Shown here: piece after piece, positions 1 to 15,724 of the stretch
Layout: the number at the start of each line of letters is the position of its first letter
Numbering within the stretch: the first letter of the stretch is position 1
DNA from: Methylophilaceae bacterium
GTDB lineage: Bacteria; Pseudomonadota; Gammaproteobacteria; Burkholderiales; Methylophilaceae
Length of the DNA stretch: 38,994 nt
Reading direction: 5' to 3'
NCBI GenBank assembly: GCA_014190615.1
Contig: BJGS01000001.1
Span: 1-38,994, forward strand
Position numbers and translations under genes: made by a program
The notes under the pieces: generated by a model
Told to the model about the DNA's origin: nothing
The model's input: only the letters and a program-made list of their open reading frames with translations
Databases searched by the model: none

Positions 1-156
1 TGCAACTCGTTTGTTCATAGTGTGAACACCTCTAGTGGGGGATTTCAGGAGGTTGGAAGGTATCAAAACTGGAGGGAAAGGCAAGCAAATACCTTATTAC
101 TACTTTATTACTTGTGTATAAAAAATGAATAAAATCAATGACTTACAAAATGATAA
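1..156. other. Unassigned left edge, probably the inner end of an integrated element
   Basis: No gene can be named here. The plus frame from base 1 is open to a TAA at 124-126 and could be the C-terminus of a gene entering from the left, but about 41 codons can stay open by chance. On the minus strand an ATG at 16-18 could begin a gene leaving the window; it has only a distant AGAGG upstream. A short inverted repeat, GTTCA-TAGTG-TGAAC, lies at about 14-28. Bases 132-146 (AAATCAATGACTTAC) recur on the opposite strand just beyond the tRNA-Pro 3' end. Lying directly before a tRNA 3' half, the stretch is best read as the end of an integrated element. Confidence 0.35.
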
Positions 157-206
157 ACAGACTCTTAATCCGTTTGTCGCGAGTTCGACCCTCGCATCCC
201 CCACCA
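157..206 (+). other. Displaced 3' half of tRNA-Lys(CTT), candidate attachment site
   Basis: The sequence contains an anticodon arm (loop 162-168, CTCTTAA, anticodon CTT at 164-166), a perfect T arm (179-183 paired with 191-195, loop TTCGACC), the acceptor 3' strand ATCCCCC at 196-202, discriminator A203 and encoded CCA at 204-206. No acceptor 5' strand, D arm or 5' half lies directly upstream. The anticodon stem has one A-C mismatch (157-161 against 169-173), as expected if its 5' strand came from a different parent. tRNA 3' halves starting near the anticodon are classic integrase attachment sites. I infer that this marks the right boundary of an element extending left of the window. Confidence 0.7.
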
Positions 207-207
207 A

Positions 208-648
208 TTAAATCATCTTCTCTTGTGGGATCTTTTCTATTGGGACGATATTATGAGGAATAGCCTCAGCAGGATGTCTCTTCTCGCCAAACAAAATAAT
301 TCCAATAATTACGATAGCTGCAAGAATCAGAATTCTATGTTCTTTTAATGATTCAAATATAGGCGGGGGCTCGCCATTATTTTCTTCATTCGAATAAAAC
401 GTTTGAGGCTCATAAACATTTTGATTTGTGAAGTTAGGTTGCAAAGATTCATCATATTTTCGTCTTGATTCTGGATCTAATAAAACCTCATGCGCGACAT
501 TAACATCCTTCATCATGTCTTCTGCATATTTTTGATTGTCGGGATGTTTATCTGGATGGTATTTTGAGGCAAGCCTGTGATATGCCTTTTTAATTTCATC
601 TGAAGATGCGGTACTTTTGACCTTAAGAACTTCGTAATAATTTTGCAT
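208..648 (-). CDS. Membrane-anchored J-domain (DnaJ-like) protein
   Basis: A 146-residue co-chaperone-like protein. The N-terminal J domain spans about residues 3-68 and carries the invariant HPD motif at 31-33, which stimulates Hsp70 (DnaK) ATPase. A polar linker rich in Asn, Glu and Pro follows, then one hydrophobic helix at about 105-121 and a short tail. There is no Gly/Phe region, zinc-finger or C-terminal substrate domain, so this is not DnaJ itself but a type III J protein that would bring DnaK to the membrane. The start has no obvious Shine-Dalgarno sequence. Its stop lies two bases beyond the tRNA-Lys CCA. It is divergent from the next gene. Client unknown. Confidence 0.8.
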
Positions 649-702: not shown

Positions 703-1017
703 ATGGCTACTGCTGTCATCATCAAACATCCGAATTCAGGCATGATTAAAATTGGTTACTATGGCTTTAGTTGGACGTACCTCTTTTTTGGATGGTTTGT
801 ACCGCTATTTAGAGGTGAATTGGGTGTCGCGGCCCTACATATGCTTTTTTCGATTATCACATTAGGGATATGGCAGTTTATTGTCGCTTTCTTATACAAC
901 AGACAATATATGACGCGCATGTTTCTGAGTGGATGGGTTTTAGCAGATTCGGAAGGTAATAACGAAATGGCTGCTCAAAGGCTTGGTGTTGTTCTACCTA
1001 AACGCGGACGTAAATAA
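703..1017 (+). CDS. Small HrgC-like inner-membrane protein
   Basis: A 104-residue protein with an N-terminal polar segment (IKHPNSGMIKIGYYGFSW, residues 7-24) followed by two hydrophobic stretches at about 25-45 and 46-66. The pattern GFSWTYLFFGWFVPLFRG resembles the FSWT...FFG...LFRG signature I associate with small proteins annotated HrgC, whose function is not established. The start has the purine-rich sequence AGAGGATA upstream. The gene converges on the following minus-strand gene with only four bases between the stops and no terminator hairpin. The family assignment is from memory and is moderate; the membrane location is well supported. Confidence 0.6.
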   Translation: MATAVIIKHPNSGMIKIGYYGFSWTYLFFGWFVPLFRGELGVAALHMLFSIITLGIWQFIVAFLYNRQYMTRMFLSGWVLADSEGNNEMAAQRLGVVLPKRGRK

Positions 1018-12771: not shown

Positions 12772-14679
12772 CTAGACTTTAGTTTGAACTTCCTGATTTA
12801 GTCGATCAATCAATAACTTAATCGACATGGATCCTAAGTCTTCGCCTTTTCGGGTTCGCACGGCAACTTGCCCAGCTTCCATTTCCTTTTCTCCTACAAT
12901 TAAGAGATAAGGAATCTTTTGTAAGCTATGTTCGCGTATTTTATAGGTTATTTTCTCATTTCTCAAGTCAGAATCGCATCGGATGTGGTTTTTCTTGAGT
13001 TCATCCATGACTTTTGAGGCGTAGTCTGCGTGTGCGTCAGCAATATTGAGGATAACTGCTTGTGTTGGGGCAAGCCAAAGGGGCATGGCACCTGAGTAAT
13101 GCTCAATGAGAATCCCGATAAAACGCTCCATAGACCCTACTATCGCCCGATGAAGCATGACAGGATGCTTGCGGCTATTGTCTTCAGTGACATATTCGGC
13201 ACCTAGGCGCTCTGGCAGGTTAAAGTCGAGCTGGATTGTGCCGCATTGCCAAAGACGGCTTAAACTATCTTTAAGGGTAAATTCGATCTTAGGGCCATAA
13301 AAAGCCCCCTCTCCCGGTTGAAGGTCAAATTCAAGCTTATTTTCAAGCAAAGCAGCTTTTAGGGCGGTTTCAGCCTTATCCCAAGTCTCGTCTGAACCTA
13401 CACGCTTTTCAGGACGGGTAGACAATTTAACCAAAACATCCTTAAATCCAAAGTCTTGGTAGGCCTTATAAAGCATGATGATAAATTTAGCGACTTCATC
13501 CTTAATTTGTTCTTCGGTGCAAAAAATATGAGCATCATCTTGGGTAAACTCTCGAACACGCATTAAGCCATGAAGCGATCCTGAAGGCTCATTGCGATGG
13601 CATGAACCGAATTCTGCAAGTCTTAAAGGCAGCTCACGATAACTATGCAGTGCATTATTAAAAATTTGAATGTGTCCAGGGCAATTCATAGGCTTAACTG
13701 CATAATCTCTATTTTCAGAAGAAGTCGTAAACATATTGTCCCGATAGTTCTGCCAATGCCCTGATTTTTCCCATAAGGACTTATCCATCACGGTAGGCGT
13801 CTTAACTTCCTGATATCCAAAATCTAAAAACATTTTGCGCATGTAATGTTCAACTTCAAGCCAAATTGACCATCCTTTAGGATGCCAGAACACCATGCCG
13901 GGTGCTTCATCTTGCATGTGAAATAAATCGAGTTGTTTGCCTAATTTACGGTGATCTCTTTTTTCTGCTTCTTCCAACATAAAGAGATAATTTTGTAAGT
14001 CCTCTTTATTCGTCCAAGCAGTGCCATAGATTCTTTGTAGCATTTCATTTTTAGAATCTCCACGCCAATAAGCACCGGCGACCTTCATTAATTTAAATAC
14101 TTTTAATTTACCAGTCGATGGCACATGGGGGCCTCGACAAAGATCTGTAAATTCACCTTCGGTATACAAAGAAACTTCCTGATCTGCGGGGATCGATTCG
14201 ATAATTTCAGCTTTATAATTTTCTTTAATTGATTTGAAGTATTGAACTGCGTCATTCCGTGGCATGACTTTTCGTGTAATAGGTAAATCGCGATTCGCGA
14301 TTTCCGTCATTTTTTTTTCAATTTTTTCTAAATCTTCAGGTGTGAAAGGTCTTTGATATGAAAAGTCATAATAAAACCCTTGATCAATCACAGGGCCAAT
14401 AGTGACTTGTGCATCTGGAAATAATTCTTTAACGGCGTAAGCTAAAAGATGCGCTGTTGAATGACGAATGACCTCAAGTCCTTCAGGATTTTTGTCAGTG
14501 ATAATTGCAAGATCGCTATCCTCACGAATCACAAATGAAAGATCAACTAGCTGATTGTTGACAAGGCCAGCAAGGGCAGCACGCGCAAGGCCAGCACCAA
14601 TATTTTGTGCAACCTCTGCAACAGTCACATCACTTTCGAATTGTCGCTTAGACCCGTCTGGTAATCTTATTTCAGGCAT
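12772..14679 (-). CDS. thrS: Threonine-tRNA ligase
   Basis: A 635-residue class II synthetase that charges tRNA-Thr. Domains: TGS (about residues 1-62), the N2 editing domain that removes Ser from tRNA-Thr (about 63-220, with [11 protein letters not shown]), the catalytic core with [10 protein letters not shown] supplying the zinc Cys, motif 2 [18 protein letters not shown], and a C-terminal anticodon-binding domain (about 535-635, with ILNIADAH). Length is normal. It begins the thrS-infC-rpmI-rplT group and lies 79 bases from tRNA-Val. Confidence 0.97.
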
Positions 14680-14758
14680 AGTTGAATTGAGTAATTAGAA
14701 TGCATCATTTTATAAGCTTTTCTGCCTTCTTGATAGCTTGAACAATGAAGCAAGAAAT

Positions 14759-14835
14759 TGGTAGGCGCGATTGGACTCGAACCAACGACCCCCACCATGT
14801 CAAGGTGGTGCTCTAACCAGCTGAGCTACGCGCCT
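14759..14835 (-). tRNA. tRNA-Val(GAC)
   Basis: A complete 77-base cloverleaf with encoded CCA. The anticodon arm CCACC-TTGACAT-GGTGG gives anticodon GAC, reading GUC and GUU. The acceptor is AGGCGCG paired with CGCGCCT. It lies between the SDR-like gene and thrS on the same strand. Confidence 0.97.
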
Positions 14836-14875: not shown

Positions 14876-15724
14876 CTAATCAATCATCGCTTCGTAACCA
14901 TGCGTAAAATCAGGGTACTTCAATGTGAATCCAGTTTCATTTAATAAAATAGATCTTAATTGCTTACCCCCTTCAATGATAGGCAATTCGACAGTATCAA
15001 TCGACAATTGAAGACGCTTTCTAATCCACATTAATACATCATATTGTTTTGTGGGTACCCCATCAGTAACAACATAAAGTGGCTCGACAGATTTATGAGT
15101 GAGAACCTGTTTCATGAGAAATACAATAAAGCGAGCACCATCTTCTTCATGAATGCGATTAGACCAGTTGTTTGTCGCAGGCCAATTACCAGGGTTGCTT
15201 TGGGCTAATTGAATCATACGAGTACGATTAGGACCGTATATTCCTGAGAGGCGCAATACAGTGGCCTTACTTTTTAATTGCTGAGTAATTATTTCAGCCT
15301 CCATTAAAGCTTCACCGCCATAATCGGCAGGCTCTGCTTTATCCAATTCATTTAAAATCTTCGTTGTTTTCTGGCCATAAACTCTTGTGCTTGAAATAAA
15401 GAAAAGATGTTTGAAATTTTTGAGCTGTAAAATAGCTTCATAAGTTTTTTTGATGCCATTCACATAATGCTCTTGATAACTTTCAACTGATTGCGTATCT
15501 GCGGAGACTGTATAGACAATAATTTCAGGTTCAATTGATTTAATCATACCAATCGCCTCAGTCTTTAAAATATCGACCTGGTGCATCTCGATAGAGGGAG
15601 GAGATTTTTTTAAACTTCGACTAAAGCCATATGTTTTAAACATAAGAGGATCAATATTTTTTGCAATTGCGAAACCTAATTGACCGCAACCTATGATTAA
15701 AACTTTAAGAGGTACTATTTCCAA
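14876..15724 (-). CDS. SDR / NAD-dependent epimerase-like protein (YeeZ-type)
   Basis: A 282-residue cytoplasmic protein of the atypical short-chain dehydrogenase group. The Rossmann nucleotide motif GCGQLG is at residues 12-17. The segment FFISSTRVYGQ holds the Ser and Tyr expected near the active site, and LRLSGIYGPNR is typical of extended SDR/epimerase proteins. The substrate is unknown; some relatives are annotated as NAD(P)-binding YeeZ-like proteins. It overlaps the end of the DUF2818 gene by ten bases and so is the last gene of the nuo transcription unit, though no link to complex I is known. Confidence 0.82.
   Translation of the reverse strand: MEIVPLKVLIIGCGQLGFAIAKNIDPLMFKTYGFSRSLKKSPPSIEMHQVDILKTEAIGMIKSIEPEIIVYTVSADTQSVESYQEHYVNGIKKTYEAILQLKNFKHLFFISSTRVYGQKTTKILNELDKAEPADYGGEALMEAEIITQQLKSKATVLRLSGIYGPNRTRMIQLAQSNPGNWPATNNWSNRIHEEDGARFIVFLMKQVLTHKSVEPLYVVTDGVPTKQYDVLMWIRKRLQLSIDTVELPIIEGGKQLRSILLNETGFTLKYPDFTHGYEAMID

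Follow-up and report, generated by a model that had tools for sequence, protein, structure and literature searches.

Genomic islands integrated into tRNA genes have been catalogued in the Islander collection, which holds 2083 anticodon-centred islands and 3760 islands with a 3' fragment of the target gene, and no serine integrase is known to target a tRNA gene (PMC4383910). In its anticodon-centred class A, crossover takes place in the anticodon loop and the native 3' half of the tRNA gene is displaced, with an intact tRNA gene and a tyrosine integrase as the other parts. Closer to the present case is the additive flexible genomic island fGI-2 of 'Ca. Methylopumilus', located at tRNA-Lys(ctt); its repeats are described, in the part of the source used here, as 'the last 20 nt' of that tRNA (PMC10872708). 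The same part names tycheposons, for fGI-3; these are cargo elements of pelagic bacteria that are anchored at a tRNA and carry a tyrosine recombinase.

Here we describe the first 38,994 nucleotides of contig BJGS01000001.1 from a Methylophilaceae bacterium (hereafter the window), which open with the end of an island of this kind. It resembles class A in the displaced native 3' half and the crossover in the anticodon loop, and also in the intact tRNA and tyrosine integrase, which for the window are seen in relatives; it differs in that the displaced half adjoins the gene of a small serine recombinase (SerR). The Islander counts make this type of crossover an ordinary one, and the displacement event and its mechanism are of a well-known kind; the unexpected part is the second recombinase gene at the island edge. 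The tRNA and the locus are identical to those of fGI-2, and the genus is probably the same, 'Ca. Methylopumilus', since the 20-mer repeat reported for fGI-2 is present at tRNA-Lys(CTT) in the same-genus genomes. The fGI-2 account, in the portion that we consulted, mentions no displaced 3' half, no serine recombinase, and no promoter or arm parts of the repeat. The Methylophilaceae tycheposon of that portion sits at tRNA-Met, whereas the window's island sits at tRNA-Lys(CTT) (PMC10872708).

The tRNA fragment occupies positions 160-206 on the forward strand (47 bases, GACTCTTAATCCGTTTGTCGCGAGTTCGACCCTCGCATCCCCCACCA) and runs from the end of the 5' anticodon stem to CCA. It contains the anticodon loop CTCTTAA (162-168) with the anticodon CTT (164-166), the 3' anticodon stem, the variable loop, the T arm (179-195), the acceptor 3' strand (196-202), the discriminator (203), and CCA (204-206). 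It lacks a preceding D arm and 5' half in the window, and neither ARAGORN nor Rfam called a tRNA at 160-206. Compared with intact tRNA-Lys(CTT) genes, the 47 bases show no mismatch in several same-genus genomes and 0 or 1 in all copies scanned; the mismatch-free match excludes a chance resemblance. A preliminary description of this DNA had recognized a tRNA-Lys(CTT) 3' half with no 5' half, correctly, and had placed it at 150-208, which reaches about 10 bases too far left: bases 150-159 belong to the neighbouring element. The single mismatch it reported in the anticodon stem is real (5' side ACAGA in the window vs GCGGA in intact genes) and lies at the exact point where tRNA identity ends. Because window base 1 is also the first base of the contig, the fragment is located ~160 bases from a contig edge.

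To the right of the fragment the flank is that of the host. The 3' half was found in 11 of 15 same-genus relatives (93-100% identity over the matched stretch), there within an intact gene, and in most of these 11 the intact tRNA is followed by the gene that lies at 703-1017 (+) in the window. We use this conserved gene (MATAVIIKHPNSG..), whose identity across 19 loci is 87-97%, as the marker of the native 3' flank. Its distance from CCA is at most ~70 bases in seven relatives (G002, G004, G009, G010, G012, G013, and G015), in which its product shows 95-96% protein identity. Because an intact tRNA stands before the same downstream gene in relatives, the fragment sits on the native 3' side of the tRNA; its orientation relative to the conserved gene is also that of the target tRNA. 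By this comparison we read the window copy as the host's own tRNA end, and 1-159 as the end of an inserted element. A J-domain (DnaJ-like) gene on the reverse strand (208-648) separates the fragment from the conserved flank in the window. It differs from the relatives' usual flank; the usual next gene begins 497 bases further on, and G011 keeps only the start of the J-domain gene at the locus. The four relatives with no 3' half (G001, G003, G007, and G014) are all fragmented bins, and the single-contig genomes of the genus all carry an intact tRNA-Lys(CTT). The same-genus genomes measure 0.8-1.4 Mb, several of them in one contig. The window's source bin (G000, contig C1) has 134 contigs, 1.22 Mb, and 85.6% completeness.

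A complete example is provided by the finished genome G006, in which the intact tRNA-Lys(CTT) (461,794-461,869, reverse strand) is separated from a displaced 3' half (441,571-441,618) by an island of ~20 kb, and the displaced half is followed by the native flank. This island carries C5 methyltransferases, a DUF2779 protein, a WYL regulator, and other accessory genes, together with an inward-reading tyrosine integrase (PF00589) beside the displaced half. The layout that the preliminary description had predicted, an intact tRNA, an island with a tyrosine integrase, and a displaced half, is thus present in G006, except that the integrase is not beside the intact tRNA. Its reading of the 3' half as the end of an integrated element is borne out by three observations: the empty sites sought in relatives (an intact tRNA directly before the 703-1017 gene in the seven genomes), the full arrangement in G006, and the match of window 1-139 to the end of a complete island in G010. 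We consider it very probable that the window preserves the right end of an integrative island in the anticodon loop of tRNA-Lys(CTT), with the native 3' half displaced to that end. The island's right-hand boundary is in this way fixed to the base in a streamlined freshwater methylotroph.

In the model that we propose, the island would enter the chromosomal tRNA-Lys(CTT) gene by site-specific insertion at its anticodon loop. It most likely brings its own tRNA 3' half, which would join the native 5' half and keep the tRNA whole, and the native 3' half would be moved to the other end of the island, where it appears as 160-206. The body of the island would lie left of the contig start, 1-159 being its last 159 bases and ending in the inward-reading SerR gene, and a tyrosine integrase at the far end would catalyse integration, by analogy with the islands of G010, Polynucleobacter sinensis, and G063 (a betaproteobacterial MAG). 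Foreign sequence is joined to the tRNA at the anticodon loop in the window itself. We infer the restored tRNA, the size and cargo of the window's island and, by analogy, its tyrosine integrase; an intact tRNA-Lys(CTT), a tyrosine integrase for this copy, and the island body were not found in the incomplete bin, the contig starting at window base 1. The probable recombination core is GACTCTTAA (160-168, forward strand, anticodon loop), where identity between element end and tRNA begins. The starting point of that identity in the window, G006, and P. sinensis is GACTC or ACT, just ahead of the loop; in G010 it is the loop itself. A tandem direct repeat at 90-111 (+) (TACCTTATTAC/TACTTTATTAC, 11-nt spacing) may be an arm-type integrase site; a repeat of at least 8 nt at 10-12 nt spacing occurred in 17 of 2000 shuffles. 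The sequence AATAAAATCAATGACTTAC at 128-146 (+) is, by eye, partly common to the att-side sequence of another SerR locus (L112) and of the G010 island.

The only recombinase at the window's island end is of the serine family and not a tyrosine integrase. Positions 1-18 of the reverse strand (ATGAACAAACGAGTTGCA) encode the first six codons, MNKRVA, of SerR, with the start codon at 16-18, ~140 nt from the fragment; the gene reads into the element and is cut by the contig start. This start is identical in sequence to that of the G010 gene, whose protein has the Pfam domains Resolvase and HTH_7. The SerR leader (19-88) is nearly identical in G010 and in the MAG contig L105; window and G010 are nearly identical over 1-88 and match at 82% over 30-139. 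SerR was found in only 3 of 399 genomes of the order, a scan that added two further genomes; among GTDB contigs, its close relatives were located in several MAGs and in Polynucleobacter and Limnohabitans. Exact patterns of the SerR leader gave no match in GTDB contigs, and those of the leader and the tRNA core gave none in viral contigs. Phages yielded no SerR, and plasmids only distant relatives (44-47%).

The genomic neighbourhood of SerR points to a regular association with att sites. At least 14 of the 17 loci examined by eye have an att site or remnant within ~350 nt upstream of SerR (the SerR loci are L035, L105-L115, and L126-L131, with no att assignment given to L105, L115, and L131). 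Nine loci besides the window have SerR adjoining a tRNA gene or fragment. The intact genes nearby are tRNA-Lys(TTT), tRNA-Ser(GCT), tRNA-Ser(GGA), and tRNA-Ser(CGA), and the 3' fragments derive from tRNA-Lys(CTT), tRNA-Lys(TTT), tRNA-Arg(CCT), tRNA-Thr(TGT), and, as a 12-nt piece, tRNA-Ser. Other SerR att sites are what we take, from peptide ends, to be the end of guaA and, in three cases, the start of an oxoprolinase-like gene.

Three complete SerR islands show the arrangement of both recombinase genes. The G010 island (14.7 kb) has the order intact tRNA-Arg(CCT), tyrosine integrase, type I restriction genes, SerR, and tRNA-Arg 3' half. In P. sinensis the island (~9.3 kb) comprises tRNA-Lys(TTT) at 14,905-14,980, SerR, cargo, a tyrosine integrase, and a 3' fragment from 5,603, and the G063 island (~10.4 kb) comprises tRNA-Ser(CGA), SerR, two C5 methyltransferases, a tyrosine integrase, and a 20-nt fragment. 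Both recombinase genes read inward in all three, and therefore would flank the att site divergently in an excised circle. SerR proteins share 66-96% identity, while the tyrosine integrases share no more than 35% or have no significant match. This difference suggests that the integrase, and not SerR, probably sets the target. The constancy of SerR at the island edge, where the tyrosine integrase varies, raises the question of its job there; dimer resolution or module exchange would be our guesses. As a separate observation, G010 has two intact tRNA-Arg(CCT) genes ~15.6 kb apart (C1:852170-853310; L004 472-1611), with a displaced 3' half between both copies and only ~0.9 kb from the second.

The same tRNA is also occupied on its other side. 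Tandem cassettes, ~0.5-13 kb in size, lie upstream of the intact tRNA-Lys(CTT) and at secondary loci in genomes of the genus (loci L085-L101 in G002, G003, G005, G006, G008, G009, G010, G013, and G015), each bounded by a repeat that consists of a C-rich arm with the tRNA promoter plus the tRNA-Lys(CTT) 5' half. Among 47 scanned sites, 10 of them intact tRNA genes, the repeat of 16 (one class of cassettes) also includes a shared arm of ~105 nt (GCAGTATCAGTTAAATATC... AGCACACCTAAGCACACC) that precedes unrelated cargo. Some cassettes carry a tyrosine integrase, and the same ones recur in differing orders and loci. The repeat given for fGI-2 covers 20 nt only; these are in fact complementary to the opening 20 nt of the tRNA, although the source words them as its last 20. 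In Islander, 5' fragments are recorded for only 159 islands, and tandems of at least three number 4 (PMC4383910); against this rarity the cassette arrays of the genus are unusual, and tandem cassettes of promoter plus 5' half had been only partly described. Thus tRNA-Lys(CTT) is a two-sided integration hot spot, where islands displace the 3' half on one side and promoter plus 5'-half cassettes accumulate on the other.

These arrays bear on whether the target tRNA is whole. The island might have come with no replacement 3' half, so that tRNA-Lys(CTT) is truly broken and tRNA-Lys(TTT) reads AAG by wobble. The bin does have no intact tRNA-Lys(CTT), contig C82 ends in a tRNA-Lys(CTT) 5' half joined to other sequence, and another such half is present in C90. 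However, C82 (L050 3725-3885) and C90 (L049 1-199) are pieces of the genus-wide 5'-half array, which coexists with the intact gene in complete genomes, and the tRNA is restored in each of the complete anticodon-loop islands used for comparison (G006, G010, and P. sinensis). The array pieces explain both the break of the bin here and why the missing gene weighs little, and the fact that several fragmented bins have no 3' half likewise makes the absence of the intact tRNA from this bin weak evidence. We therefore regard a broken tRNA as unlikely. The two 5' halves were also considered as the left junction of the island and rejected as unproven, their flanks matching cassette-type sequence in other genomes. 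Slightly less probable again is that the 3' half is a relic of a deleted or scrambled island. Such remains exist, as Polynucleobacter 31A-FELB has a truncated SerR beside an intact tRNA-Lys(TTT) with core-like genes directly after, but in the window the SerR start codon and leader are intact and the 3' half is undecayed.

An assembly chimera, with the tRNA 3' half fused to the end of an unrelated contig, could be suspected 160 bases from the end of a contig, in a bin of 134 contigs and at a repeat-rich locus. We consider it very improbable, given that in G006, G010, and P. sinensis the island ends meet tRNA 3' halves at an identical position of the anticodon loop, and that SerR adjoins tRNA sequence at the nine other loci. 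A split or intron-containing tRNA gene was suggested by the perfect complementarity of 35-43 (GTGGGGGAT), as a 5' acceptor strand, with 196-204. This reading was rejected, since 35-43 belongs to the SerR leader and is conserved in G010 beside tRNA-Arg, with no partner there; there is no D arm, and the fold z-score is -0.95. We give it a negligible probability. The displaced native half at the end of an integrated island remains the reading that we prefer.

On a wider scale, we suggest only tentatively, at somewhat less than even confidence, that the window's island belongs to an undescribed group of freshwater betaproteobacterial islands, in which the att site would be flanked by two divergent recombinase genes, those of a conserved SerR and of an interchangeable tyrosine integrase. 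In the genus, the anticodon loop of this tRNA-Lys(CTT) would also be used in the opposite polarity by the tandem cassettes, each with the tRNA promoter and 5' half as an att site of ~230 bp; these cassettes would form an integron-like system with no integron integrase.

Two minor observations concern the same bin. Contig C42 of G000 (L051, 9.1 kb) codes for a tyrosine integrase and for a large protein similar to helicase/primase proteins of phage satellites, and its last 126 bases recur at position 34, from which it is probably circular or tandem. It was considered as the missing island body and rejected, as it has the integrase but no SerR or tRNA-Lys part, and its ends overlap. In the window, the Rfam antisense RNA HPnc0260 was matched at 14661-14797 (+), on the opposite strand of a tRNA-Val, with a score of 59.4 against a threshold of 59; this match is probably spurious.
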